Below, piece after piece: positions 3,739-35,920 of a stretch of DNA of 35,920 bases (positions within the stretch are counted from its first letter, which is position 1; each line of letters starts with the position of its first letter). Position numbers and translations under genes: made by a program. The notes under the pieces were generated by a model. The model did no database searches. It was not told the DNA's origin and worked only from the letters and a program-made list of their open reading frames with translations. Source of the stretch: a virus; the IMG/VR virus record IMGVR_UViG_3300009156_000057, positions 1 through 35,920 of that record. The stretch is one strand, 5' to 3'.

Positions 3739-5148
3739 ATGGCTAAAGCAAAGAAACAATCTGCTGATGCACAAGCCGGCGCTCTCCAGAGCGCCGCTAC
3801 AAGTGCACTGGCGGCGGAGTCCACGTCTGCTCCGCTTGCAGTTCCCAGCGTGCCGAAGAGAAAGAAGGTTAATTCCACTGCTCAACCTCAAGTTGCTCCA
3901 ACGGCTGCGGATGCGGCGTCGGACGGGTTGGGTGGCAACTTCCGGGATCAGGCGTTGCGCTTGTTGTCGGGAGATTTAACGGCCTTGGCGCCGAATGCGG
4001 AAGGCGGCGGTCGCGGAGCGACGCGCCCTACCGAGACGGCGACTGGGGAGGACGATTCTGGCGAGGATGCTGGCGGCGATGGACCTGAAGCGTCCGCCGT
4101 CGGTGCCGAGTCGGATGACGATAATTCACACCTGGCTGACCTCGGTCCTGCGGACGGCGATGCGCCTGCGGCGGGCGGTCCTGCGGACGGCGCTCCTGCG
4201 GACGGCGGTCCTGCGGACGGCGCTCCTGCGGAGGGCGATGAGGGCGAAGCGGCAGGCGAAGGCGAGACTGACGAAGAGGCTGACGACGAAGACCTGGATG
4301 CGTTGGCGGAGTTGGATGATGCGCCGTTGGACGCGCACGCGAAGGCTAAACAGTGGCCGGCTTCATTCCATAAGCGAGTCAAGAAGTTCGCAAAGCAACA
4401 TCGGCAAGCGGTCGCGCACGAAGCGCGGTTGAGTGAGAGAGTTGCGGAATTGGAGCAGGAGCTGGAGCAGCGCAATGGTCCAGAGTCCGGCGCGGTGGGG
4501 ACACCGCGCCCTACCAGCAATGGTGGTCCGGCGTCACTGCCGGAGCAGGCGTTGTTGAAGGACATCGACCTGCGGGAGCGGGCGTTGGGCCAGATTGACG
4601 CGCATTTGTCCAGTCCGGAAGGGATGGCCGGTCAACCGATGGAGGTGGGCGGCCAGACGTTCACGATCGCGCAGTTGCGTGCAGAGGCGCGCAAGTATGA
4701 GCGGGAGGTGAACCAGGCCAATGCCCAGTTGCATCAGCTTCGGCAGACGACTGAGACGGCGCGCCGGCAGTTCGATGCGCAGGCCGTGACGCAGCACCCT
4801 TGGTTGAAGGACCAGCGGAACGCGGAAACGGTGGCCATCGAGTCGGCGTTTCGCAACTTCCCGATGCTCGCCCAGATGCCACGGATGCGCCTGATTCTGG
4901 CGGACCATCTCGCTTACCAAAAGCAGTTGGCGGCAGCTAAGGCGACAAGTGCCAACGGGACGAATGGTAAAGCCCATCGGCCATCGGCGCCGGCTGCGCG
5001 CGCTCCGGCGCGTCCAGCGGCTGCACCGTTGCCAGCGGCACGCGCGGAGACGGATGGCAGAGCCGCGGTCAGTCAGGTGATGAAAACAGGGACGCACGCC
5101 GACGCAAAGAAGGCGGTGATGCACCTGATCGAGTCCAGACCGAGATGA
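3739..5148 (+). CDS. scaffold-like head assembly protein
   Basis: A 469-residue protein directly before the capsid gene, the usual place for a scaffold. The start is taken as the ATG at 3739 (MAKAKKQSAD); a TTG 15 bases earlier is less likely. The N-terminal third is low-complexity Ala/Pro and then very acidic (residues about 105-200), carrying the pentapeptide array GPADG/APADG. A coiled coil follows (HEARLSERVAELEQELEQ) and a second helical region around 300-345 (LRAEARKYEREVNQANAQLHQ). This acidic-plus-coiled-coil layout is typical of scaffolds. Four palindromes are read in frame within it (families D, C, B array, C). It could also be a non-scaffold internal protein. Confidence 0.65.
   Translation: MAKAKKQSADAQAGALQSAATSALAAESTSAPLAVPSVPKRKKVNSTAQPQVAPTAADAASDGLGGNFRDQALRLLSGDLTALAPNAEGGGRGATRPTETATGEDDSGEDAGGDGPEASAVGAESDDDNSHLADLGPADGDAPAAGGPADGAPADGGPADGAPAEGDEGEAAGEGETDEEADDEDLDALAELDDAPLDAHAKAKQWPASFHKRVKKFAKQHRQAVAHEARLSERVAELEQELEQRNGPESGAVGTPRPTSNGGPASLPEQALLKDIDLRERALGQIDAHLSSPEGMAGQPMEVGGQTFTIAQLRAEARKYEREVNQANAQLHQLRQTTETARRQFDAQAVTQHPWLKDQRNAETVAIESAFRNFPMLAQMPRMRLILADHLAYQKQLAAAKATSANGTNGKAHRPSAPAARAPARPAAAPLPAARAETDGRAAVSQVMKTGTHADAKKAVMHLIESRPR
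3778..3795 (+). repeat. family D hairpin, copy 1
   Basis: GGCGCTC, loop TCCA, GAGCGCC, followed by GCTAC. It is read in frame near the scaffold N-terminus as AGALQSAAT. The second copy is at 5160-5181. Confidence 0.75.
4004..4032 (+). repeat. family C element in scaffold gene
   Basis: Half of a family C element, core GGTCGCGGAGCGACGCGCC followed by CTACC, in frame as GGRGATRPT. The same core stands in the intergenic copy at 8412-8440. Confidence 0.7.
4144..4237 (+). repeat. family B tandem array in scaffold gene
   Basis: About six 15-bp units of the type GGTCCTGCGGACGGC, alternating with CTCCTGCGGACGGCG and two degenerate units (GCGCCTGCGGCGGGC and CTCCTGCGGAGGGCG). A 15-bp period keeps the frame and yields alternating GPADG and APADG pentapeptides. 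Single units of the same element are scattered elsewhere in the window. Confidence 0.85.
4489..4515 (+). repeat. family C palindrome in scaffold gene
   Basis: GGCGCGGTG, centre GGGA, CACCGCGCC, then CTACC. Read in frame as SGAVGTPRPT. Inverse-oriented relatives lie at 21095 and 26536. Confidence 0.8.
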
Positions 5149-6229: not shown

Positions 6230-6257
6230 CGAATGACGAATGACGAATGACGAATGA
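6230..6257 (+). repeat. junction tandem repeat (CGAATGA)x4
   Basis: Four exact 7-bp units between the capsid gene and the next gene. Each unit contains an ATGA, so several out-of-frame ATGs stand before the real start. This favours the ATG at 6275 over the one at 6254, which is part of the last unit. Confidence 0.85.
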
Positions 6258-6274
6258 CGAAAACTGAAACGACT

Positions 6275-6939: not shown

Positions 6940-7329
6940 ATGAGAAACCTGCAACTGCACCTGGACCCGGGCCTGTGCGCGGCGCTCGAGGAATTGGCGC
7001 GGCGCAAGTTGTTGCTCGAACACATCCAGGCGCAGAAGGAGCAGGAGGCGATGGCGCGGCAGATGCGCGAGGCCAAAAGCGTGGATGGCATGGGCGAGTT
7101 GCAGATGCGGGTGCACTCGACGGCGTATCACGATTGGGGAATGAAGCACGGCTTCGACTGCTGGAAGGATGAAGGGTTCAAGAAATACTTTCGCAAGATT
7201 GCGCCGGAGACGCGTGTGAAATGCGGCGGCACGAAGTTGATGGTGGGCTATCAGCCAGGGCAGGAGCAGCAGGTGGCCATATTCGGGAGCGGCAATGAGC
7301 CGCGATTCAGGAAGAGATACGACGAATAG
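6940..7329 (+). CDS. hypothetical head-tail region protein
   Basis: A 129-residue protein. It has an N-terminal amphipathic helix (LDPGLCAALEELARRKLLLEHIQAQKEQ), then a mixed region with HDWGMKHGFDCWKDEGFKKYF that recalls small conserved phage head-to-tail proteins, and a basic tail (EPRFRKRYDE). Only one good start exists, directly after the hexamer array. Its TAG stop is part of the next junction repeat (GACGAATAG). It probably belongs to the neck or a chaperone; no defined family is recognised. Confidence 0.5.
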   Translation: MRNLQLHLDPGLCAALEELARRKLLLEHIQAQKEQEAMARQMREAKSVDGMGELQMRVHSTAYHDWGMKHGFDCWKDEGFKKYFRKIAPETRVKCGGTKLMVGYQPGQEQQVAIFGSGNEPRFRKRYDE

Positions 7330-7338
7330 GACGAATAG
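7321..7338 (+). repeat. junction repeat (GACGAATAG)x2
   Basis: Two 9-bp units followed by GACCTATG. It provides the stop of the upstream gene and sits five bases before the next ATG. Related GACGAATAGGAC strings occur at about 8889 and 17540. Confidence 0.7.
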
Positions 7339-7343
7339 GACCT

Positions 7344-8440: not shown

Positions 8441-8449
8441 AAAAGCGTG

Positions 8450-8470
8450 AAACGTAAAACGTAAAACGTA
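8450..8470 (+). repeat. junction tandem repeat (AAACGTA)x3
   Basis: Three exact 7-bp units preceded by a GCGTGAA variant. The array ends one base before the ATG at 8472. Confidence 0.85.
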
Positions 8471-8471
8471 A

Positions 8472-8882
8472 ATGAAGAGAATCATTCTACCCATCCTTTG
8501 CCTGGTGGCGCTGGCCACGATGGCGCAAGTGGTGCCGAACCGGCAGATCGCGGGCATTAAGAAGACGACGCCGGTCGCAACCAATCTTTGGAACGCGACA
8601 ACGCAGCCGGCGCGCGTGTTCTCGATCACGGTCTACAACAGTTCGGCGACGGACCTGTATCTGTATGTGGCGGACACGAACAGCGCCACGGTGGCGAACA
8701 ACAGTTTGCCGAGCCTGGCGCCAGTGAAGATAACGGCCGGCGCGGCTGGCTTCTGGGCGGAGCCAGCGGGCATTCCATTTGGACAAGGGGTGACCATTGG
8801 AACCTCAACCACGGACCGCACGCTCACCAATGGAACAGCCAGTTTCATTATTACCATTTTGTATGATGGCTCACCGAACTGA
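8472..8882 (+). CDS. small exported beta-rich protein
   Basis: A 136-residue protein with a clear Sec signal: MKRIILPILCLVALATMAQ, cleavage expected after AMA. The mature part is beta-rich and Ser/Thr/Asn-rich (FSITVYNSSATDLYLYVAD) and ends FIITILYDGSPN; it resembles small virion or tail-decoration proteins. The TGA stop leads into GAGGATATG, the likely start region of the next gene. It stands directly before the SGNH receptor-binding protein and may be its partner. Export of the protein, if real, is unusual for a virion component. Confidence 0.5.
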   Translation: MKRIILPILCLVALATMAQVVPNRQIAGIKKTTPVATNLWNATTQPARVFSITVYNSSATDLYLYVADTNSATVANNSLPSLAPVKITAGAAGFWAEPAGIPFGQGVTIGTSTTDRTLTNGTASFIITILYDGSPN

Positions 8883-8886
8883 GGAT

Positions 8887-10785
8887 ATGACGAATAGGAC
8901 GAAGGGGACGTATGCCTTGGCGGTCCTGTGTCTGTTGGGGCTGTTGTTCGGCGCTGGGAATGCGGGCGGTGCGGTGAGTGGTGGTGGCGGTGTCAGCGTC
9001 AGCGGCACAAACCTCAACCAATGGTCGAGCATCCCAACGAACGAAATGGCGAGCATCTATTACGTGGAGAGCAATGCATTGCCAGTCTTTCCGAACGTCG
9101 CCAGGCAGATGTTGAACAGCAAGCCACTGCGGTTTGGCTGGCTGGGGGATTCGATTGGAAGCCTGATGATGGAGGAACTGGTTGCATCGGTCGCTTCATA
9201 CCACGGACGGAACGGGGCGGCGGTGAATGGCGGAGTTTATCTATTCCAAACGCTGGGGGCCGCAGCAACGAATGTCACCCGGTTGACCAACTGGTTTGCG
9301 CAATACGTGGATGTCGGCACGGGCGGCGATGTCACCTATAGCAACTTCACTGGCTTTCCCTACATTTGGTCTGACCGTTTCGGGTGTGAGTTCCTGTTCC
9401 AGACCAATGGCGGCACGTTCAAAATGCAGCTCGCAACCAACGGCGGGGCGTTTGCCGATGTGCTGACAGGGATTGCGACTGGGACAGCGAGCACGAACCT
9501 GGGTGGCGTGACGAACGTGGCCATGCTGCCAGGCTACTATGCGGCCAGGATAGTGCAAACGGCGGGCGGCTTGGTGAGCATTATAGGTGTTGATTTGTGG
9601 TCCACTAACGGACCCGGAGTGCGCGTCTCTTACCTCAATCAATCTGCCACAACCATGCAGGACATGGCTGGCGTGCCATCCTCAATATCAGAGCCGATCC
9701 TGCGTCATTTGGGCCTCGATTTACTGACGCTGGAGGGGACGGTGGACCCAACGGTGGATGTCCTGACGGCCGTCTCGAATCTCAACAGGCGGTCGTTCCT
9801 GACACTGACGAACACCGATATTCTGTTCGTTGGAACGAAGCCGGTGGACCCCGTGAATAACTTTGACTACGTGACGTTCAATGCGGCGTATCGAAAGGTG
9901 GCGGCTGACAATAACAGGTTCTTCATCGACCTCTCTATCGTGTCCGGTACGTTTTCAAACATGCAAGCGATGGGCTGGTCAGGCGATGGCCTGCACGGGT
10001 CGAACAATCTGCACCGCCTCTGCGCATCGGCCGTGATGCAAAAGGCGAAGCTATTTGATACGACGATGGACAATGAAGGGCGGTTGATGTCGCGCACGAA
10101 CATGTTCAACGGCCCGCTCTACGTCTCCAATAACCTGGCTGTATTCGGACCCAACAGTAGCTTCACCATCTATGACAGGAGTAGCCCGATACCAGTGCCG
10201 CCAGCGCCGGGAGCACTGCCTTTCGGACTCAGGCTGAGGGGGGAAAATAACGGTGGAACTATCTCGTTTATGAGTTCCTCTGGAGCCGAGTTCGGCTCCA
10301 TGCGGTTCGGTGGTTTTGGTAACGCCCCTTACCCATTTACAATGGGTGACTCCTTCGGCGACCCAAGGGTGCCGTGGAAAGTTTACGCAACGAACGGCGT
10401 TGATATGGGCGTGGGCGGATTCACCAACAATTACGAGCTGGGCTTGTGGACCATTGCAGGCGCGGGCAATGGGAACACGAATTATACGCTGCTGGCCAGC
10501 AAGGGGGCGATGTTCCTGGGGTCATCGAACGTAAACATTTCGGCGGTGATGGAGACGCCGGCGCTCCTACAGCGGTCCTTTACGGCTTATGTCACCAATC
10601 TCAGCGCGGATACGTGGGGATTCCAGGTAAGTTCGGTGACGAATCGGTGGCGCTGGTGGGGATTGAACGGTGGCGGGACCAATGCGCCGACAGTGCTCAC
10701 GAACAACACGATGCTCGTGGTGGAAGGGAAGTGTCGCGGCACGAATATCGTGGCGACGTATTATTACGTGCGACCGGGGCTGTAA
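8887..10785 (+). CDS. SGNH-hydrolase receptor-binding/tail-spike-like protein
   Basis: A 632-residue protein from ATG 8887; further upstream ATGs overlap the previous gene and would hide the signal-like N-terminus TYALAVLCLLGLLFGAGNAGG. Residues about 84-90 hold GWLGDSI, block I of SGNH/GDSL hydrolases with the catalytic serine. Residues about 364-376 hold GDGLHGSNNLH, block V with the catalytic Asp-x-x-His. The family removes acetyl or acyl groups, often from polysaccharides, so this could modify host surface glycans during attachment. The last ~108 residues (LGSSNVNI, NLSADTWGF, GTNAPTVLTNNT) recur in the fibre gene at 13202. Acyl substrate unknown. Confidence 0.65.
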   Translation: MTNRTKGTYALAVLCLLGLLFGAGNAGGAVSGGGGVSVSGTNLNQWSSIPTNEMASIYYVESNALPVFPNVARQMLNSKPLRFGWLGDSIGSLMMEELVASVASYHGRNGAAVNGGVYLFQTLGAAATNVTRLTNWFAQYVDVGTGGDVTYSNFTGFPYIWSDRFGCEFLFQTNGGTFKMQLATNGGAFADVLTGIATGTASTNLGGVTNVAMLPGYYAARIVQTAGGLVSIIGVDLWSTNGPGVRVSYLNQSATTMQDMAGVPSSISEPILRHLGLDLLTLEGTVDPTVDVLTAVSNLNRRSFLTLTNTDILFVGTKPVDPVNNFDYVTFNAAYRKVAADNNRFFIDLSIVSGTFSNMQAMGWSGDGLHGSNNLHRLCASAVMQKAKLFDTTMDNEGRLMSRTNMFNGPLYVSNNLAVFGPNSSFTIYDRSSPIPVPPAPGALPFGLRLRGENNGGTISFMSSSGAEFGSMRFGGFGNAPYPFTMGDSFGDPRVPWKVYATNGVDMGVGGFTNNYELGLWTIAGAGNGNTNYTLLASKGAMFLGSSNVNISAVMETPALLQRSFTAYVTNLSADTWGFQVSSVTNRWRWWGLNGGGTNAPTVLTNNTMLVVEGKCRGTNIVATYYYVRPGL

Positions 10786-10800
10786 GACGCATGGCGATGT

Positions 10801-11013
10801 GTGAACAAAGAGAGTGAACGGGACTTAATCAACATGGTGAAGGAACACGACCAGATTCTGCGCGGCAACGGTGACCGCGATGGCCTGTTGCATTCGGTGC
10901 GCGGTCTGCTCGAGGAGATGCGCAATCGCAAGAAGATGCAGCAAGCGATTTTGATTGGGGTGGTTGGGCTGCTCATTGAAAGGGTGCTGACGATGGTGGG
11001 GCGGATGATGTGA
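10801..11013 (+). CDS. XhlA-like small membrane protein
   Basis: A 70-residue protein with GTG start (MNKESERDLINMVKEHD). A charged helical N-terminal part is followed by a basic stretch (EEMRNRKKMQQ) and one membrane segment (AILIGVVGLLIERVLTMV). This order matches XhlA-type proteins, which partner holins in host lysis. The next gene also encodes a membrane protein with holin features, so the pair looks like a lysis cassette. Its TGA stop is followed directly by GCGTGAATCGTGAA junction repeats. The family assignment rests on layout only. Confidence 0.5.
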   Translation: MNKESERDLINMVKEHDQILRGNGDRDGLLHSVRGLLEEMRNRKKMQQAILIGVVGLLIERVLTMVGRMM

Positions 11014-11039
11014 AGCGTGAATCGTGAAGCGTGAATCGT
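11012..11039 (+). repeat. junction tandem repeat, alternating GAAGCGT/GAATCGT x4
   Basis: Four 7-bp units alternate between GAAGCGT and GAATCGT. The first unit overlaps the TGA stop of the upstream gene; the ATG at 11048 follows nine bases after the array. Confidence 0.85.
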
Positions 11040-11047
11040 GAAAACAA

Positions 11048-11936: not shown

Positions 11937-12446
11937 ATGATGAAAACAAAACTGATGATGTTGGTGGCAGTGCTGGTGGTGTGTTGGACCGGGACGCTAT
12001 TGGCGGGTGATGAGACGAGCCCCCTCACCCCAGCCCTCTCCCCCAATGGGGGCGAGGGAGTGGGATTGTACGCGGATACGTTCCTGAGCCTGCGCACGCC
12101 GGACTTCAAAGATTCCACTTATGGCTATGGCATTGGTGTGGGTTACCAGGTGACGCGGCATTGGGGCGCGGACCTGCGCCTGAGTCATCAGGGCCTCGAT
12201 GCGGAGGGGAGCGCGGTGCAGGACATCGGCGGCCGGCTCATTGCGCGGATGCCGTGGGAGACGTTGCAGCCGTACACGTTCATCGGGGGGTCGTTTGATT
12301 TGGAGCGCGACGCCTGGCACATCGACCCGGGCGTGGGTGTGGCCATCGGCAAGCGGCTGCAATGGTTTGCCGAGGCAGGCATTGACGCGGATTTGCGCGG
12401 GCACAGTGGATACAAGTTTGGGAGTGGGTTGCGACTGCGGTTCTAA
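11937..12446 (+). CDS. phage-encoded outer-membrane beta-barrel (Lom-like role)
   Basis: A 169-residue protein. Signal peptide MKTKLMMLVAVLVVCWTGTLLAG is followed by a small barrel with alternating aromatics (YGYGIGVGYQVTRHWGADLRL, YTFIGGSFDLERD) and a final Phe in GSGLRLRF, the C-terminal insertion signal of outer-membrane proteins. The size suits an eight-stranded barrel. Lambda Lom is a precedent for phage-encoded barrels expressed from a prophage, often changing surface properties or blocking reinfection. Directly after the signal peptide a family A palindrome adds SPLTPALSPNGGEGVG in frame. TAGGA about 14 bases upstream is a weak ribosome site. Confidence 0.65.
   Translation: MMKTKLMMLVAVLVVCWTGTLLAGDETSPLTPALSPNGGEGVGLYADTFLSLRTPDFKDSTYGYGIGVGYQVTRHWGADLRLSHQGLDAEGSAVQDIGGRLIARMPWETLQPYTFIGGSFDLERDAWHIDPGVGVAIGKRLQWFAEAGIDADLRGHSGYKFGSGLRLRF
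12020..12060 (+). repeat. family A palindrome in outer-membrane protein gene
   Basis: CCCCTCACCCCAGCCCTCTC on the left, CCCCCAATGGGGG at the centre, CGAGGG on the right. It falls between the predicted signal-peptide cleavage region and the first barrel strand. Confidence 0.85.
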
Positions 12447-12831: not shown

Positions 12832-12834
12832 ACG

Positions 12835-12897
12835 GGTAGGGCGTGTTGCTCCGCGACCGCCGGCTACTGCGGCTCGCGCGGAGCGGCGAGCCCTACC
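12835..12897 (+). repeat. double family C element, intergenic
   Basis: GGTAGGGCGTG...GACCGCCGG joins CGGCTCGCGCGGAGCGGCGAGCC and CTACC, so two half-elements face each other between GGTAGG and CCTACC ends. It fills the whole gap before the tail gene at 12912, which is the upstream boundary of the inserted fibre cassette. Confidence 0.75.
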
Positions 12898-12911: not shown

Positions 12912-13205
12912 ATGCCACGCTTTAGAACATACGGGCCGTTGGATGAGGCGCCGCGCGTCGATGGCGATGAACGCTTCATTGGCGTGAACATGCGGTTGCA
13001 CCCGGCGGTGTTGCCGCCGGGGTATGTGAGCGAGGCCATCAATGCGCGGTTCAATGATGGCGTGGCGGAACCGCGCAAGGGGTTCGTGCGGCTGAATTGG
13101 ATTAACCACACGCAGTTGCAGGAGCAGGTGACGGCCATCATGGAAGAGGGCGGTGTGCCGGGGGCGATCATGGGTGAGGGCGCCGGGGCCATCCTCGAAG
13201 AATGA
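12912..13205 (+). CDS. N-terminal fragment of split tail nozzle/propeller protein
   Basis: A 97-residue protein. After MPRFRTYGPLDEAPRVDG it reads ERFIGVNMRLHPAVLPPGYV and then AINARFNDGVAEPRKGFVRL. This is the typical opening of long phage tail proteins of the nozzle/tubular type, where it is followed at once by a propeller-like body. Here the body is missing: the frame ends in EGAGAILEE and overlaps (ATGA) a fibre gene. The expected body starts in a separate gene at 15123. It could still act as a separate subunit that completes the propeller. Confidence 0.6.
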   Translation: MPRFRTYGPLDEAPRVDGDERFIGVNMRLHPAVLPPGYVSEAINARFNDGVAEPRKGFVRLNWINHTQLQEQVTAIMEEGGVPGAIMGEGAGAILEE

Positions 13206-15079
13206 AAACGGGAAGACGAGAAGACGGGAAGGCGGGCAGGGTAGGGCGGTCGCTCCGCGACCGCCGCGGCGCGCGCGGAGCGGCGCGCCCTACCTGGCTG
13301 CTGGCGTTGCTGCCGCTGCCGCTGGCGCTCGTGCTGATTGCGGCTACGGTGGTGACGCCGGGGGAGCGCATCAGCCGTTACCCGCGGGTGACGACGTTGA
13401 GTGATACGGACCTACTGGTGGCCGGGCGGACGAATGCTGCGGTGCCGACGAACGTGGGCATTGCGGCGCTGAGTTTGCTGGCGCAGGCGACCAATGGACT
13501 GGCGAGCACGGGGTTTGTCAACCAGGTGGGCACGACGGTGAGCAATGGCGTGGTGAACTTCGTGACGAACATCGTGGCGAACACCAGTAATAGCTTGTCG
13601 TTGTCCATTTCCAATACGAGCAACTTTCTGGCGACCAGTTCCATCGACGTGAAGACGAACGAAGACAGATTGATTCTTCACGGAATGCCAGTGGCCGGAA
13701 GTCAATGGTACGTTGGGACCAATGGGACACCGAATACCAACAGCGGTCAAAGGAGAGGAATGGAGTTCATTGCGGCAAAGGCATCATTGCGAGTGGGGTC
13801 AGTTGGGAATGTTGGTGTTGCGAGACATCCCTACATCGCGGAATCAAACTATTGGGAAGACGCAAACGTGCAGCTTGGAAGCTCAATACTGGGAGGCTCC
13901 AACAATCTTGCCAACGCTGTCTTTTCAACCATTGGTGGCGGTGTCGGGAACCACATTTTCACCAATGCAGGTGCGTCCTTCATTGGAGGTGGCACCAATA
14001 ACTACGTTCGCACGAACGCATATAACTCAGTCATCGGGGGCGGCAACTTCAATCAGATTCACGTGGACTCGCATTCCTCGGTCATAGGTGGAGGAACCGG
14101 TCACAACATAGGAGGCGGAAGCCAGCACGTATTCATTGGAGGTGGACAAGCGCAGAGCATTGGTGGCTTGAACTTCGGAGGTCAGAACTTCGCTTTCATG
14201 GGTGGAGGCGTGAATAACACATTGGGCGACGAAGCGTCCGGAACGTCTGAGAAATCCGTGCTGGTAGGAGGCGAGCTTAACAGGTGCAATGGTGAATGGG
14301 CATTTCTTGGCGGCGGCAGTCAGAACACTTTCTCTGCGGATTGTGACTATAGCAGTATCGTTGGAGGCTTTGGGAATGGAATGGGCGCCAACCCGAACTC
14401 GGGTTCTTTATATGCTTTCATTGGCGGAGGAAGGGGTAACGGAATATCGGACGGAGCAGATAGCAGCGTTATTGTAGGAGGACGGGATAATACAATTAGT
14501 GGGTCGAGCGACACAAATGCTTTCATAGGTGGAGGATTTGCTAATCTCATTGCTGCTAATTGCAACGCAGGCGCAATCTTGGCAGGAAAGAATAACACTG
14601 TCTCCGGATCCGGTGATTTCGGAACCACAATAGGCAATTCCAATACGGTAAGCGCGCCATACGCAATTGCCATTGGTGTTACCGTAACAAATGCTATCGC
14701 TGGCTCAGTGACGGTCGGGGAACTGATTTCTTACAACACGCCGGCGGTCATTGCGGGGGCGGGGACGGGCAGCACGAATTACACGTTGCAACTGACTTCG
14801 CCGGAGATGGTGCTGGGATCGAGCAATGTCAATATCGTGGCGGCGATGGGATGGATTGATGGGCGGACGCATAAGTGGAGTGTCAGTATTACGAATCTGA
14901 GTCCGGATACGTGGGGGTTCACGTTCTCGGCGGTGAGTAACAGGGTGCGGTGGCAATCGTGGATGTATGGGACCAATGCGCCCTCTGTGTTGACGAATAA
15001 CACGCTGTTGAGGATTACGGGCACGTCCACGGGGACGAACACGTTGTGTGAGTTCAAGTATTTCAGTCCGGCGTTGTGA
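13202..15079 (+). CDS. YadA-head-like beta-roll fibre with N-terminal membrane segment
   Basis: A 625-residue protein. Residues 13-31 come from a family C palindrome (GRVGRSLRDRRGARGAARPT), followed by a membrane segment LLALLPLPLALVLIAATVV. A Ser/Asn/Thr-rich linker follows, then from about 226 to 500 some 16 repeats of about 17 residues with I-G-G-G-x-x-N-x-I cores (STIGGGVGNHI, SVIGGGNFNQI, SVIVGGRDNTI), the pattern of left-handed beta-rolls in trimeric adhesins such as the YadA head. The C-terminal ~107 residues are shared with the SGNH protein. It is probably a receptor-binding fibre. The repeat region is visibly less G+C-rich than its surroundings, a sign of separate origin. Confidence 0.65.
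   Translation: MKTGRREDGKAGRVGRSLRDRRGARGAARPTWLLALLPLPLALVLIAATVVTPGERISRYPRVTTLSDTDLLVAGRTNAAVPTNVGIAALSLLAQATNGLASTGFVNQVGTTVSNGVVNFVTNIVANTSNSLSLSISNTSNFLATSSIDVKTNEDRLILHGMPVAGSQWYVGTNGTPNTNSGQRRGMEFIAAKASLRVGSVGNVGVARHPYIAESNYWEDANVQLGSSILGGSNNLANAVFSTIGGGVGNHIFTNAGASFIGGGTNNYVRTNAYNSVIGGGNFNQIHVDSHSSVIGGGTGHNIGGGSQHVFIGGGQAQSIGGLNFGGQNFAFMGGGVNNTLGDEASGTSEKSVLVGGELNRCNGEWAFLGGGSQNTFSADCDYSSIVGGFGNGMGANPNSGSLYAFIGGGRGNGISDGADSSVIVGGRDNTISGSSDTNAFIGGGFANLIAANCNAGAILAGKNNTVSGSGDFGTTIGNSNTVSAPYAIAIGVTVTNAIAGSVTVGELISYNTPAVIAGAGTGSTNYTLQLTSPEMVLGSSNVNIVAAMGWIDGRTHKWSVSITNLSPDTWGFTFSAVSNRVRWQSWMYGTNAPSVLTNNTLLRITGTSTGTNTLCEFKYFSPAL
13240..13294 (+). repeat. double family C element in fibre gene
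   Basis: GGTAGGGCGGTCGCTCCGCG, then CCGCCGCGGCGCGCG, then GAGCGGCGCGCCCTACC. It is in frame at the fibre N-terminus, directly before the hydrophobic segment, and gives the positively charged flank of that segment. Confidence 0.8.
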
Positions 15080-15080
15080 T

Positions 15081-15108
15081 GAAGCGTGAAGCGTGAAGCG
15101 TGAAACGT
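15081..15108 (+). repeat. junction tandem repeat (GAAGCGT)x3 + GAAACGT
   Basis: Four 7-bp units just after the fibre stop and 14 bases before the GTG start of the next gene. It marks the downstream boundary of the inserted fibre cassette. Confidence 0.85.
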
Positions 15109-15122
15109 AACGAATAACAATC

Positions 15123-17234
15123 GTGCCATCCACATTTACAGCAATTACGACGCCGTGGGGGACAGTGTATGGGCAGGGGCTGTTCAATACGGCCTCGGCG
15201 AGTGGCACCATTCGGGAGTATGTCATCATGGCGACCGATGAGGGCGTGTTCGCGTGCCTCGAGAACAATTTCCCGTTCCTGGTGCCGTTGCCGAGTGGGG
15301 TGACGGTTACGGATCGGGTGCGGTTCACGCAGGCGGGGTCCACGCTTTATATGTGGCGTGGGTTCGATGCGGACCCGCTCCGATGCACAGACTTATTGGT
15401 GGGCTTTGAAGACGTGCCAGACCCGCCGGCGGGCAGTGGTCTGCAACGGATTCCACGTGGTATTCGCGCAGTGGTGGTGGGCAATCGGATGTGGGTGCAA
15501 GCGGCGGATGACCAGGTGTGGCCGAGTGATGTGCTGGATTATGAGGCGTTCGACCTGGCGAACGTGCAGACCATCCAATCGAATCCGGGTGATGTGCTGC
15601 AAACGATTGTCCAGTTTGGCAGCGGCATTGCGGCGTCCATCATTTGCCTGAAGCGGCGCAGTGTGCATCGGCTGGTGAACGTGTCGGGTGACCTGGGGGA
15701 TCTGATTTTGTTGACGGTGACGAACCGGTTCGGTTGCGTGGCGCCGGAGAGCGCAGCGGATTGGGGCAGTGACCTGGCGTGGCTGGCGGATGAAGGCGTG
15801 GCGAGCCTGTCATTGACTGAGTTCGGTGAATTGCAGCCGACGGTGCGCAGCGGTCGCGAGCCGCAGCCGATGTTGAGCGACGCGATTCAACCGCTCATCG
15901 AGCGCATCAATTGGCAGTACGCGGAGAATGCCTGGGGCGCGTTCTGGAATGGCAATTACTACCTGGCGGTGCCGCTGGACGATGCGGAGTCGTTTCGGCA
16001 GGAGCTGGCGATGGGCCAGTTCGTGGGACGGGGCGGCGCGACGGCCGTCGTTCCTGGACTGCTCGAGGTGGGCGCGACGTATCGTTACATCCGCGGTGAA
16101 TCGGGGGTGAGCCTGACGAATGGGGCGCAGGTGTTCACGGACCAGCATGATTTCACGGCCACGAGCGAGGATGTTACGTTCACGTTGTTTGGTGCGGGGT
16201 CGATTTGCAATGACAGTTTGATGCGGGTGTTCAAAGGCGTGAACACGGCGGTGTTGGTGTTCTCGACGCGCAATGCGGCGTGGGCTGGCTACGACACGAC
16301 GCCTGGCCTGGAGGTGAAACAGTTCTTCACTGCGAAGACGCGTTCGCGGTTGCGCTTGTTCTTCATCAGCCAGGACGGTTGGGTCCCAATGTATGAAGAG
16401 GATTTTGAGGATGCGATCGCGGTGCCGTATGTGGATGTGACGGTCGGCGCACTGCCGGCTAATGGGGACACCATCCAGGTGAACGGCGGTCAACTGGTGA
16501 CGGCGGATGACACGCTGGTATTGAACACGGGCACGGCGTGGGGCACGGACAATTTGAATCTGGCGCAGGCGAATTTCTATCGTGTCATAGATGACCCGTC
16601 GAACATGGGTTACAACCAGCAGAATGGTTGGGCGGCTTACTTCACCACGCCGTTCCGAGTGGACAGTGACACGGTGCGTTTCTATTCGACCAATGGATTG
16701 GTGCCGACCATCACGATAACAGGCGATTGGGCGACGGTGTTGAAGGTGAACACGCAACCTATCGAGTGGACATTGGTGACGCGTGCTTATCGACTGACGC
16801 AGGAAACGCGGCCGGGATTGTTGGCTGCAATGATTGCCCAACTGCAAACGTGGGCGCCGACGTATACGGTGTCGTCGCTGCCTGAAGGTGTCGAGGAGCA
16901 GCAGGTATTGGTGGACGCCAAAACGCGCAGTCGCACGAAGTATGACCGGCCATTCAACAAACCGGATTGGGTGCAGACCAATATCAATGACGATTTTCAC
17001 ACGCCATTTCGGCAGGATTACTCGGTGGTGTTCACGAGTGATACGATGGAGCTGACGCTGGAGTCGAACGGCGTGACGGTGGACAAGCACCAGGAGATTA
17101 CGCATCCCATCCGCGGGCGCGGGCGCGGGCGGACGGTGCAGGCGACGATCTTGAATGAGACGGGGCGCGTGCGTTTGCTGGCGATGCAGAGCGAGGGGAT
17201 ACGGCGGGATCGTGGATACGGAATTAAAACGTAA
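15123..17234 (+). CDS. tail nozzle/propeller protein, body part
   Basis: A 703-residue protein with GTG start. It begins abruptly with TPWGTVYGQGLFNTA, which in related long tail proteins comes after the 'NARFxxGVAExRxGxVxL' opening. Repeated blade-like stretches follow: YVIMATDEGVFAC, DRVRFTQAGSTLYMWRG, IRAVVVGNRMWVQ with PSDVLDYEAFD, and SIICLKRRSVHRLV. These fit a beta-propeller tail tube or nozzle protein (T7 gp12-type role, DNA exit). The missing N-terminus is in the gene at 12912. The stop TAA is part of the AAAACGT array after it. No palindromes are seen inside. Confidence 0.6.
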   Translation: MPSTFTAITTPWGTVYGQGLFNTASASGTIREYVIMATDEGVFACLENNFPFLVPLPSGVTVTDRVRFTQAGSTLYMWRGFDADPLRCTDLLVGFEDVPDPPAGSGLQRIPRGIRAVVVGNRMWVQAADDQVWPSDVLDYEAFDLANVQTIQSNPGDVLQTIVQFGSGIAASIICLKRRSVHRLVNVSGDLGDLILLTVTNRFGCVAPESAADWGSDLAWLADEGVASLSLTEFGELQPTVRSGREPQPMLSDAIQPLIERINWQYAENAWGAFWNGNYYLAVPLDDAESFRQELAMGQFVGRGGATAVVPGLLEVGATYRYIRGESGVSLTNGAQVFTDQHDFTATSEDVTFTLFGAGSICNDSLMRVFKGVNTAVLVFSTRNAAWAGYDTTPGLEVKQFFTAKTRSRLRLFFISQDGWVPMYEEDFEDAIAVPYVDVTVGALPANGDTIQVNGGQLVTADDTLVLNTGTAWGTDNLNLAQANFYRVIDDPSNMGYNQQNGWAAYFTTPFRVDSDTVRFYSTNGLVPTITITGDWATVLKVNTQPIEWTLVTRAYRLTQETRPGLLAAMIAQLQTWAPTYTVSSLPEGVEEQQVLVDAKTRSRTKYDRPFNKPDWVQTNINDDFHTPFRQDYSVVFTSDTMELTLESNGVTVDKHQEITHPIRGRGRGRTVQATILNETGRVRLLAMQSEGIRRDRGYGIKT

Positions 17235-17260
17235 AACGTAAAACGTGAAACGTAAAACGT
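17226..17260 (+). repeat. junction tandem repeat (AAAACGT)x5
   Basis: Five 7-bp units, the fourth being GAAACGT. It contains the stop of the propeller gene at 17232-17234 and ends six bases before the next ATG. Confidence 0.85.
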
Positions 17261-17266
17261 AAATAA

Positions 17267-17530
17267 ATGGGCGCAACTGTAACAGTCCAGGCTGGGAAGA
17301 CGTTCGTTCCGAACGAGAAGTTGACCATTCCCAAGCTGAATCTGCTGGGCTTGCCGACCATCCTTGTGGAACTGGAACTTGGCCAGGTGGAGGATGTCAG
17401 TGCGACGCCGCCCAGTGATGGACAAATTTTGGTGTTCAATGCGGCGACTGGTGAATGGACGCCGCAAGCCATCCCGGTCAGCACAAGTGACACGTTTAAT
17501 CGAATCTTTGCGTGGGCGAACTTTGCGTAA
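17267..17530 (+). CDS. small tail-associated protein
   Basis: An 87-residue protein. Middle PSDGQILVFNAATGEWTPQ resembles the 'DGQVLxYNxxTGxW' strand-turn motif seen in phage tail fibres and virion decoration proteins. The N-terminus is beta-rich (TVTVQAGKTFVPNEKLTIP). The C-terminus DTFNRIFAWANFA is amphipathic. The start is right after the junction repeats; the stop is followed by GACGAATAGGAC strings. It may be a short fibre or joint protein attached to the nozzle. Confidence 0.5.
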   Translation: MGATVTVQAGKTFVPNEKLTIPKLNLLGLPTILVELELGQVEDVSATPPSDGQILVFNAATGEWTPQAIPVSTSDTFNRIFAWANFA

Positions 17531-18002: not shown

Positions 18003-18034
18003 CGTTAAATCGTTAAATCGTTGAATCGTTAAAT
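18003..18034 (+). repeat. junction tandem repeat (CGTTAAAT)x4
   Basis: Four 8-bp units, the third being CGTTGAAT, between two small virion-type genes. The GTG start at 18046 follows 11 bases later. Confidence 0.85.
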
Positions 18035-18045
18035 CGTTTGAAATT

Positions 18046-20105: not shown

Positions 20106-20133
20106 CGTAAATCGTAAATCGTAAATCGTAAAT
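20106..20133 (+). repeat. junction tandem repeat (CGTAAAT)x4
   Basis: Four exact 7-bp units followed by CCAAAGTG. The same unit and the same CCAAAGT tail precede the portal gene, so this whole junction block was copied between two places 20 kb apart. Confidence 0.85.
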
Positions 20134-20138
20134 CCAAA

Positions 20139-28838: not shown

Positions 28839-29128
28839 AGTCCTGATTCCTCGTCCATCTGAATCCTGCGCCATTCTGTAGCGGCGTCCCTGTCGTTCCA
28901 TCCGGCGGCTTTGAGTCTGAGCACAAAGGCTTCCCGGTTAGCCTCGTGCGTTTGGTACGCACTCATTTTCAATTCTTCAACCTCCGCCATCGTTGTCGGC
29001 GTAAGCAAGTATTCAAGAAAGCCTTTGGCAATCTGCGCGTCACTGCGCATTTCGTCGGCAGTGTAATACGCTGGAAAGTCCAGCTTCCGCATTGCTTCCT
29101 TCAAAGTTAAGAGGCGATGGGGTGTCAT
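28835..29128 (-). CDS. small charged helical protein
   Basis: A 97-residue minus-strand protein (MTPHRLLTLKEAMRKLDFPA). It is helical, with acidic and basic patches (MAEVEELKMSAYQTHEANRE) and a tail NDRDAATEWRRIQMDEESGL. Its ATG overlaps the TGA of the integrase gene, so it is likely made from the integrase transcript. A recombination-accessory role is only suggested by position. Confidence 0.5.
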   Translation of the reverse strand: MTPHRLLTLKEAMRKLDFPAYYTADEMRSDAQIAKGFLEYLLTPTTMAEVEELKMSAYQTHEANREAFVLRLKAAGWNDRDAATEWRRIQMDEESGL

Positions 29129-30513
29129 GCGGTGGCAAGTTGAGGGGTGAAGGTGCCGGTGGGTGGGGGTTCGGGCAGGGGGATCGGTTCGTTGGGGATC
29201 GCGGTGACGAAGTAACGGCCGTAGCTCTGTTCGGTGGTGGTGATGTGGTTGTGCCGGGCCCAGACTTGGGCTTCGCGGAGTCCGTGGCGGCCGGCGCGCA
29301 TTGCGGCCATTCCGACTTGGCAGATGGCGTAAGCGCGGAATTCGTGGATGGTCTTTTGGGTGCCCCAGCCGAGGGCGCGCATCCAGCGGGTGATGTCGCG
29401 CCAGACGTAATCGGTGCGGCAGGAGCGGTGGGGGCCGGACAGAATATAATCCTCGGGCCTGCGGCCGGCGATTCCTTCCGATGGGACGGATGCGACGGAT
29501 GGGGCGGATAGCAGAAAGGGAGCAAGGTGAGCAAGTCCATCGTTGGCGGCGGGGATGAAGGGGAGTTCCTGGCCGTTCTTTTGTAAATCGCTGGGGCGGC
29601 GGGCAACCCAATTTTCGCTGATGACGAATCCGGTGACGCCGTTGCGGGTTTGGATGTCGCGGATCCGCGCGCCGATGATTTCGCCTTTCCTCAATCCGAA
29701 CGTGAGGGCGAGCCATACGGCGGCGTATAGGTTGGGGTTGCGCGTGCGTTGTACGGCTTCCAGGTCGTCAAAGGTGCGGCGGATGATGTGGTCGGGTGGG
29801 ATCTGGTAGTCGCGGCCTTTGGCGCAATCCCGGGGTGGGAATGGCCAGGCGGCGCAGAAGTCGTCAATGGACTTGGGGAGTTCAATGCCGGCGATGTCGC
29901 GGTAGTAGGCACGGAGTTTTGGGTTTTGGAAGCAGAGGCGGGCGCTGGATACGGTGGAGTTGGCGGAGCGTTGGAGTTGTTTTAATCGCCTTGCGCCAGC
30001 GGATTCGGCGTGGGCTTGGGTGAGGACGGCGCGGGCGTAGGTTTCGATTAAGGAGCGGCTGATGATGGTGAGGGGACTGGATAGGACGGATGGGACGGAT
30101 GGGACGGATAGCGGCTCGCGCGGAGCGGCGAGCCCTACCTTGCTGACGATGTTCAGGAGTTGTTGGCGGGCGGAGTGGATGGTGTTGACGTTGAGCACGC
30201 CGTTGGCGGCGCGTTCGAAGTGGATTAGGAATTGTTCGAGGGTAGGCACGGGTGGCGCGGGTTTCTGGCGGCGGCGGAATTCCTGGTCGGCGAGGTCGGC
30301 GCGGCCGAGTTCGCGGAGTTTGATTTCTGCAAGGGCGGCTTTGCGGGTCATGCGGCGGGCAGCGGCTTCGCCTCCGGCGAGTTCGTTGGTGATGCTGGTG
30401 GTGTGTGTGCGGACTTTGCCTTGCCAGGTAAAGCGGTAGGTCCACTGTGATTCGCGCTCGCCTGGGGTGGCGGTGGGGCCGCGGCGGAGGCGTTGCCAGA
30501 TGGTGATTTTCAT
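29125..30513 (-). CDS. int: tyrosine-type phage integrase
   Basis: A 462-residue minus-strand protein that should catalyse site-specific integration. The start is MKITIWQRLRRGP at 30513. Catalytic-domain motifs: LTFGLRKGEIIGARI with the first Arg (about residue 272), TIHEFRAYAICQ with His-x-x-Arg (about 388), and HITTTEQSYGRYF with the nucleophilic Tyr (about 430). The N-terminal part has an arm/core-binding layout. Two insert-like stretches, KVGLAAPREPLSVPSVPSVL in the core-binding domain and SAPSVASVPSEG in the catalytic domain, come from a family C palindrome and GGACGGATG repeats read in frame. The catalytic residues are intact, so the enzyme may still work. att sites are not identified. 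Confidence 0.8.
   Translation of the reverse strand: MKITIWQRLRRGPTATPGERESQWTYRFTWQGKVRTHTTSITNELAGGEAAARRMTRKAALAEIKLRELGRADLADQEFRRRQKPAPPVPTLEQFLIHFERAANGVLNVNTIHSARQQLLNIVSKVGLAAPREPLSVPSVPSVLSSPLTIISRSLIETYARAVLTQAHAESAGARRLKQLQRSANSTVSSARLCFQNPKLRAYYRDIAGIELPKSIDDFCAAWPFPPRDCAKGRDYQIPPDHIIRRTFDDLEAVQRTRNPNLYAAVWLALTFGLRKGEIIGARIRDIQTRNGVTGFVISENWVARRPSDLQKNGQELPFIPAANDGLAHLAPFLLSAPSVASVPSEGIAGRRPEDYILSGPHRSCRTDYVWRDITRWMRALGWGTQKTIHEFRAYAICQVGMAAMRAGRHGLREAQVWARHNHITTTEQSYGRYFVTAIPNEPIPLPEPPPTGTFTPQLATA
30077..30139 (+). repeat. GGACGGATG repeats plus family C palindrome inside integrase
   Basis: GGATAGGACGGATGGGACGG followed by another GATGGGACGGATAG, then GCGGCTCGCGCGGAGCGGCG and AGCCCTACC. 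Antisense to the integrase and in frame with it. It shows that junction-type repeats and palindromes can sit together in one coding insert. Confidence 0.75.
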
Positions 30514-30529
30514 GTGCTGCGCACGGCGT

Positions 30530-30838
30530 TCAGGGTTTAACCGCGAATGGACGCGAATGGACGCGAATGGACTGGTCGTGTCCGGGCAAACCGAACCGCG
30601 CAATGAGGCCATCGCGGAGGGCAATATCGGAATCGCCATAGCCGCAGTCGGAGTGCCGGAGGTTGCCGGATTCTTCGATAAGCCATTCATAAGAGCCCAT
30701 GACGGGGTTACCGATGACGCGAACGGACCATCCGGGACTTCCAGGCAAGTGGTAGAGAACGGCAAGGTCGTCAGGGTCTGTGTATCGGAGTTCTAACCGT
30801 GGGCCAGTGTAACGGGCCCAAGTGCGTGTGTGGTTCAT
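30530..30838 (-). CDS. hypothetical protein upstream of integrase
   Basis: A 102-residue minus-strand protein from ATG 30838 (MNHTRTWARYTGPRLELRYT). It contains a beta-type core (GWSVRVIGNPVMGSYEWLIE) and ends FGLPGHDQSIRVHSRPFAVKP; the last 14 residues come from the CGCGAATGGA repeats. The stop lies 16 bases before the integrase start. The ATG overlaps the stop of the XRE gene. No domain recognised. Confidence 0.5.
   Translation of the reverse strand: MNHTRTWARYTGPRLELRYTDPDDLAVLYHLPGSPGWSVRVIGNPVMGSYEWLIEESGNLRHSDCGYGDSDIALRDGLIARFGLPGHDQSIRVHSRPFAVKP
30542..30571 (+). repeat. (CGCGAATGGA)x3 tandem repeat
   Basis: Three exact 10-bp units at the 3' end of the gene upstream of the integrase. 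Similar units occur at 31074-31093 and, varied, at about 12450. They encode the C-terminus and stop region of that minus-strand gene. Confidence 0.85.
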
Positions 30839-34562: not shown

Positions 34563-34577
34563 GTGATTTTGAACCAT

Positions 34578-35324
34578 TTGAGTGTATGTGTGATGAACAC
34601 TGTTTGGCAGTCGAGCCGGGCTTCCGGCAACGCGTTGCTTGTGTTGCTGGCGATCGCGGATAACGCGAATGATGCGGGCACGGCCTGGCCGTCGGTGGAC
34701 ACGATTGCGCGCAAGGCGCGGTGTTCGGAGCGGCGGGCGCAGCGGCATTTGCGCCGGCTCGAGGCGTTGGGTGAGCTGCAAGTGGAAAAACAGGCGGGGC
34801 CGCGGGGGTGCAATCTTTACCGGGTGACGGTTTGTCGCCCCGACGTTTCGGCCACCCCGGGTGACGGTTTGACGGGTGACAGTTTGGGCGGGGGTGACGG
34901 TTTGACGGGTGACAGTTTGGGCGGGGGTGACGGTTTGACGGGTGGCCAAATGGTGCAGGGGGGGGTGGCCAAAACGGCCACCGGGGGGGTGACCCCTCCG
35001 TCACCCGAACCATCATTGAACCATCAGGAACCGTCATCTTATAAGAAGAAGGGGGGGTCTGCGGTCGGGAAGGGGACGAAGGGGACCGATGGTCCTGGTC
35101 CTGCGGACGGCGGACCTGCGGACGGCGGATCAGGCGCCGGCGCGCTCACGGAGGCACAGGTGAGGGGGAGCGCGATGCGTTACGCGGCGCTCAATGCGCG
35201 GATCGTGAAGGCGGAGGCGTCGCTGGCGCGTGGGGAATTGGATGCCGGGCAGGTGGAGGTTTTGAAAAAAATGCGCGCGGAGCGGGATGAGTTGCAGAAA
35301 AAACAGGCGCGGGGGGAGTTTTGA
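34578..35324 (+). CDS. phage replication initiator-like protein
   Basis: About 248 residues. Family members usually begin 'MSxxVMNxVWxxS', so the TTG at 34578 (MSVCVMNTVWQSS) fits best; GTG 34563 and ATG 34593 are alternatives. Residues about 15-80 (NALLVLLAIADNANDAGTAW, WPSVDTIARKARCSERRAQR, HLRRLEALGELQVEK) form the winged helix common in phage replication initiators. A disordered middle carries GDGLTGDSLGG repeats encoded by iteron-like DNA. The C-terminal half ends in a charged coiled coil (LKKMRAERDELQKKQ). It probably binds the origin in its own gene and recruits the host helicase, as lambda O does. Confidence 0.65.
   Translation: MSVCVMNTVWQSSRASGNALLVLLAIADNANDAGTAWPSVDTIARKARCSERRAQRHLRRLEALGELQVEKQAGPRGCNLYRVTVCRPDVSATPGDGLTGDSLGGGDGLTGDSLGGGDGLTGGQMVQGGVAKTATGGVTPPSPEPSLNHQEPSSYKKKGGSAVGKGTKGTDGPGPADGGPADGGSGAGALTEAQVRGSAMRYAALNARIVKAEASLARGELDAGQVEVLKKMRAERDELQKKQARGEF
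34823..34937 (+). repeat. six iteron-like 12-mers inside the replication gene
   Basis: GGTGACGGTTTG at 34823, 34860, 34893 and 34926, and GGTGACAGTTTG at 34875 and 34908. Spacing from 34860 on is regular (15, 18, 15, 18 bases). The repeats lie within the initiator-like gene and are followed at about 35005-35050 by a relatively AT-rich stretch (CATCATTGAACCATCA, CATCTTATAAGAAG). This is the layout of a replication origin in an O-type gene: iterons, then an unwinding region. Function is inferred. Confidence 0.6.
35097..35127 (+). repeat. two family B units in the replication gene
   Basis: GGTCCTGCGGACGGCG directly followed by GGACCTGCGGACGGCG, in frame as GPADGGPADG, 3' of the iterons. Confidence 0.8.

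Positions 35325-35668: not shown

Positions 35669-35920
<252 letters not shown>

Follow-up and report, generated by a model that had tools for sequence, protein, structure and literature searches.

A podovirus nozzle gene probably split in two by a fibre-like gene where its N-terminal arm meets its propeller

The nozzle is the last gate that holds the DNA in short-tailed phages. In podoviruses it sits as a hexamer on the adaptor, and N-terminal strands complete its platform. In T7, the N-terminus of the nozzle protein supplies strands of the platform barrel, and in T7 and SU10 the N-terminal arm corresponds to the platform strands (platform geometry: PMC6702177, PMC9509320). Our analysis concerns an uncultured short-tailed phage, known from a virus record of IMG/VR (IMGVR_UViG_3300009156_000057) with a podovirus-like structural module; the window, i.e. 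the whole stretch of DNA analysed, comprises 35,920 bp. With a probability of roughly two in three (about 0.68), a podovirus nozzle gene of this phage is split in two by a fibre-like gene, and the nozzle probably consists of two separately made chains. A description of such a split nozzle was sought in the open-access literature and not found. The split of the window is seen in a single contig, and its presumed consequences for expression and for the virion are read from sequence.

The gene order in the window is that of a portal-like gene (start 454), the major head protein gene (start 5205; phrog_1328, 1e-28), an adaptor-like gene (start 7344), a cargo-rich stretch and then the split nozzle region. 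This region contains three intact open reading frames on the plus strand: the N-terminal arm gene with 97 aa (12912-13205), the inserted fibre-like gene with 625 aa as an ORF (13202-15079), and a gene of 703 aa with a GTG start (15123-17234), which encodes the beta-propeller together with the remainder of the nozzle. The first and the third share one reading frame; the stop of the arm gene and the start of the fibre-like gene overlap as ATGA. A small tail gene follows (17267-17530, plus strand), whose homologues come after the nozzle in the relatives G001, L011 and L014. The locus has by this synteny the gene order of a nozzle, after the adaptor and before the small tail gene and the internal virion genes. 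That the gene at 17267 might be a truncated fibre (the homologue in G001 has 524 aa) was considered and dropped, since a short version occupies the same place in L011 too.

Some other features of the window were noticed. The product of 11937-12446 resembles an outer-membrane beta-barrel protein encoded by the phage (OMP_b-brl, E 2e-5, under the curated cut-off); it contains a LTPALSPNGGEG repeat that is present in the 78-434 product as well, and the 18306 product has a similar PSPQPSPP-type stretch close to its end. An integrase-like gene (29125-30765, minus strand; phrog_1, 9e-8) and a replication O-like gene (34563-35324, plus strand; phrog_391, 1e-21) indicate that the phage is possibly temperate. 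Near the end of the record, the hexamer ACGGCT is repeated 27 times (35669-35830). Two scans of genome contigs yielded no relative.

The sequence-only reading had taken the 97-aa gene for the N-terminus of a long tail protein and the gene at 15123 for a later part of the same type of protein, and both assignments hold when the parts are compared with single-chain relatives. In G001 (IMGVR_UViG_3300037493_004247), a genome that is circular by a 127-bp terminal repeat, residues 1-65 of the 97-aa gene align with residues 1-65 of the nozzle at 64.6% identity (E 1e-24). The same ORF of G001 is matched by the 703-aa gene over residues 9-297 (38.8%, E 2e-51) and 258-691 (38.8%, E 1e-76), i.e. at ~39% identity. 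Arm and propeller lie there in one frame, with a linker of 6 residues between them: the joint reads ...FTVLPWLN-KIVSGN-TTPWGEVHG... in G001 and ...FVRLNWINH [tail, stop, insert] VPSTFTAI-TTPWGTVYG... in the window. The L011 nozzle aligns to both parts in the same manner, the 703-aa protein being 34% identical to it. In a tblastn comparison with annotated phages, both parts match one gene of phage C75C1, annotated as head closure Hc3, to which the arm gene is 44.8% identical. Full-length homologues start ~60-70 or more residues before the point equivalent to 15123, with the arm, and not at that point itself. The two genes thus represent, as judged by these alignments, opposite ends of a single podovirus nozzle protein (head-closure Hc3 / P22 gp10-like).

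For a wider comparison, viral contigs were scanned twice with an arm profile; each scan gave 80 loci, in overlapping sets, and 116 complete arm ORFs were obtained, of which 88 are distinct when judged by their last 200 residues. Arm and propeller form one chain of >500 residues in 87 of these 88 relatives; the sole exception is L058. Searched alone, the arm gene has no match among the viral contigs, and alignments were needed to find its relatives; it matches phrog_3287 weakly (E 0.011), and the 703-aa protein searched alone has no PHROG match. Hence, membership in the nozzle family runs through the relatives, since members of the family alignment match phrog_578 (best 1.3e-9) and phrog_3287 (1.3e-12). 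Within the window, a second copy of either nozzle part was sought and not found.

A profile search of solved structures gave no match; only the comparison of folds succeeded. The AlphaFold models of the L011 nozzle and of the 703-aa protein are confident in the propeller alone: the mean pLDDT of the latter is only 55.7, with mostly 80-90 in the propeller part, and the arm of L011 remains below 50. Foldseek relates the 703-aa model to the tail of Pa223 (3.8e-13), P22 gp10 (5e-10) and Sf6 gp8 (7e-9), and the top matches of the L011 model are Pa223, VP1, Pan3, SU10 and T7 gp12, i.e. portal-tail or nozzle chains of podoviruses; with TMt reaching 0.53 at most, the TM-scores normalised for coverage are modest, and these matches give the fold class and not the details. 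The cut lies between the N-terminal arm and blade 1 of the propeller, which is undivided. It had been proposed that the propeller might be assembled from two chains, but the break precedes blade 1 and leaves the propeller whole. Because the N-terminus gives platform strands in T7, it is the platform, not the propeller, that would be built from two chains and completed in trans. By analogy, the cut would fall between the platform strands and a propeller left whole; that the arm docks there is a prediction, the arm being of low confidence in the model.

The joint at which the nozzle is cut varies in length throughout the family. In 43 non-redundant relatives, the distance from the end of the arm (W.N) to the start of the propeller amounts to 4-338 residues, is always in frame, and falls into groups of 4-26, 85-109 and 210-338 residues. 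These in-frame length groups suggest a site tolerant of insertions, and the alignments point to the arm-propeller linker as an insertion hot spot. The window goes further, since a whole gene has been taken in, with stop and start codons. Linker inserts of >200 residues in L052, L081 and L085 open with a CBM5/12-like motif, and these could possibly be sugar-binding domains in the nozzle; Pfam gives only sub-threshold CBM_5_12 hints for the linker inserts, with a best E of 0.008.

The relative L058 (also sampled as L100; IMGVR_UViG_3300024510_000155) has an ORF of 214 residues, consisting of the arm and ~145 residues without a family match and ending in TGA; this stop overlaps the ATG with which the propeller ORF of 695 aa begins, again as ATGA. 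Its insert domain is unrelated to the insert of the window but occupies the same linker. This could reflect a sequencing frameshift or error; given its position and the overlapping ATGA, what is apparently a second, independent split is the preferred reading. The suggestion that a nozzle split by a fibre gene would be a new arrangement therefore needs qualification: it agrees with the single chain in 87 of the 88 relatives, but one of them is apparently split at the same linker.

The sequence-only reading described a complete beta-roll fibre gene, and the ORF is indeed complete, with a GGGxxN beta-roll (13661-14740, plus strand); no Pfam or PHROG profile matches it, hence no known fibre profile, and its N-terminus resembles a signal peptide. 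It is called a fibre because of its beta-roll repeats and its place in the tail cluster, and we regard the product as fibre-like, a putative virion fibre. Searched alone, the gene has no match among viral contigs or in the phage collection. Its true start is uncertain because a palindrome lies within the first 31 codons. The hydrophobic, signal-peptide-like segment WLLALLPLPLALVLIAATVV, read by eye, follows at 13295-13354 (plus strand). The C-terminal domain of 112 residues (14735-15076, plus strand) shares 51% identity with the C-terminus of the protein encoded at 8797-10785 and is, by this similarity, paralogous to that other fibre-like gene of the phage. GC3 of the beta-roll is 0.50, against 0.74-0.84 around it; the parts of the insert that flank the beta-roll have values of 0.76-0.82, so that the ends are typical of the genome. 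The sequence thus indicates a mosaic, with a paralogous C-terminal domain and a beta-roll of atypical codon GC. The best homologue, 45% identical, is found in L162 (IMGVR_UViG_3300044500_000149), where it immediately follows a nozzle gene that is intact (phrog_3287, 8.8e-23) and also comes after a tail-fibre-like gene; it opens with a signal-peptide-like segment too, MRKIVTLFFVLFVLSANA. From this neighbourhood, a fibre-like gene adjacent to the nozzle that moved into the joint appears a plausible origin. The proposed recent gain of a receptor-binding protein is in keeping with the atypical GC3 of the beta-roll and the nozzle-adjacent homologue, but less so with the genome-typical ends and the signal-peptide-like N-terminus.

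Signal peptides are unusual for virion fibres, which assemble in the cytoplasm. The 13202 product could accordingly be an exported surface protein carried as cargo instead of a virion fibre, a reading compatible with the split as such, which we consider rather unlikely. The signal-peptide-like N-terminus common to the insert, the L162 homologue and the 8797-10785 paralogue speaks for export, as does the lack of a PHROG or Pfam match; the fibre-like GGGxxN beta-roll, the place of the insert within the tail-gene cluster and the position of the L162 homologue after a nozzle gene and a tail-fibre-like gene argue for a fibre. Signal-peptide-like starts, odd for virion proteins, were observed in several genes of the structural region (6254, 8472, 8887, 11937, 13295-13354), as well as at 3521 of L162 and at 1882 and 3298 of L163, which are unrelated contigs with the fibre C-terminal domain. 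The fibre-like protein of 8887-10785, with which the insert has the C-terminal domain in common, contains a GDS motif (FGWLGDSIGS) and is possibly an SGNH-type hydrolase.

The insert had also been described as bounded by a double palindrome and a tandem array. Both are present: a double palindromic repeat lies just upstream of the arm gene (12834-12897; GGTAGGGCG...CTCCGCGACCGCCG...GGCGAGCCCTACC), and a TGAAGCG array is located after the fibre stop and before the propeller start (15080-15108, plus strand). A second double palindrome occupies the first codons of the fibre-like ORF (13239-13294), and a short array of GAAGACGG runs across the arm stop and the fibre start (13204-13236, plus strand). 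However, such elements are found at other gene junctions too and hence are no specific mark of the nozzle insertion. Exact copies of the palindrome core CTCCGCGACCGCC number 4 in the window; when <=2 mismatches are allowed, there are 17 matches against 3.95 expected by chance; half units lie at 4006 and 8414 (minus strand), double units on either side of the arm gene. Short tandem arrays (422-444, 6230-6261, 7317-7341, 8442-8472, 11010-11042, 15080-15108, 17225-17263, 18003-18038, 20106-20134) have a period of 7-9, are A-rich, and differ in their units (e.g. CGTAAAT, CGAATGA, CGTGAAR). They end within ~15 nt of the start codons of many genes, or enter them, and replace a clear Shine-Dalgarno sequence. 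The array before the propeller GTG ends 14 nt upstream of it, as at several other genes of the phage.

According to the model we favour, an ancestral single nozzle gene would have been interrupted in the short linker between the conserved arm and blade 1, where, by comparison with the relatives, a complete fibre-like gene now resides. The sequence shows that the arm gene closes with a stop codon behind a new tail of 31 residues, and that the propeller gene is provided with a separate start codon and leader. The tail (13110-13202, plus strand) contains a 30-nt imperfect repeat (AIMEEG/AIMGEG) and has no family match and no tblastn match. The site would be tolerated because the linker already takes in-frame inserts of up to 338 residues in relatives, and the likely source of the insert is a fibre gene beside the nozzle, as in L162, from which it would have been acquired or moved by recombination.

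Alternatively, the insertion may have inactivated the nozzle, and the record would show a defective or decaying genome caught soon after the event. Such a history, which we hold to be improbable, would agree with the single contig, a record that may be partial, and a somewhat derived propeller: 29 of 39 conserved positions are kept, against a family median of 95% and a minimum of 62%. Relaxed constraint could account for this count, which is close to that of L058 (30/39). Against decay, all three ORFs are open, GC3 is typical of the genome in the arm (0.76) and the propeller (0.74), the leader of the propeller gene resembles those of other phage genes, and the window offers no further copy of the nozzle that could take over. 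Furthermore, of the 14 arm positions that are conserved at >=85% in the family, 13 are retained in the conserved arm of the window (residues 1-66, ending in LNWINH; 12912-13109, plus strand), against a family median of 93%. When arm identity was regressed on that of the propeller, with 946 intact pairs, the arm of the window lay above the prediction by a residual of +0.097, above all 44 other taxa. This higher identity speaks against decay of the arm and in favour of its function, although the comparison would fit a functional arm and one cut off very recently alike.

Even less probable is an artefact in which assembly joined a fibre gene from elsewhere into the nozzle gene via shared repeats. 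Short repeats do flank the insert and recur in the window, but the two nozzle ends are both there, complement each other and lack hardly anything, a result that one mis-join does not produce; the ends bear a new stop codon, tail and start codon, and L058 has a comparable split. That the parts are rejoined in expression into one chain, by an intron, an intein or translational bypass, we regard as very improbable, despite the common frame of both parts. A self-splicing intron or structured RNA in the nozzle gene was sought in Rfam without a match at E<=1 on either strand; the stop that ends the arm speaks against an intein; bypass would have to span a gap of ~2 kb, to our knowledge far beyond known cases; and the propeller gene is equipped with a start codon and leader of its own. 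The split into two genes with separately made products remains the preferred reading.

We lean, by a small margin, towards a more general proposition: nozzles could be, and would repeatedly have been, divided at the arm-propeller joint, a small protein made separately would complete in trans the platform sealing the nozzle against the adaptor, and the joint would be a hot spot for domains and even whole fibre genes. A natural two-chain nozzle, if true, would demonstrate that action in trans is open to the N-terminal arm. It would offer a natural split point for studies of nozzle assembly, be relevant to the idea of a circular permutation put forward for T7 gp12, and mark a site where phages add domains or whole genes beside the tail machinery.

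The fibre-like protein of L162 has the beta-roll, the C-terminal domain and the hydrophobic N-terminus in common with the insert, at 45% identity; its gene directly follows the intact phrog_3287 nozzle gene, whereas that of the window lies inside the nozzle gene. In L030, L052, L081, L089 and others, the nozzle carries an insert at the same linker, but there it is fused in frame and the chain remains single. The nozzle of L058 is apparently split at this linker as well; its arm is fused to a different domain of ~145 aa, and the propeller ORF begins directly at the stop, with no separate fibre gene. With the known podovirus nozzles (P22 gp10, Sf6 gp8, T7 gp12, SU10, Pa223; PHROG 578, PHROG 3287), the nozzle of the window shares the profile, the predicted propeller fold, the N-terminal arm and the order of the tail genes. 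The known nozzles, however, are single chains, whereas in the window the arm and the propeller are encoded by genes that lie apart, with a fibre-like gene between them.
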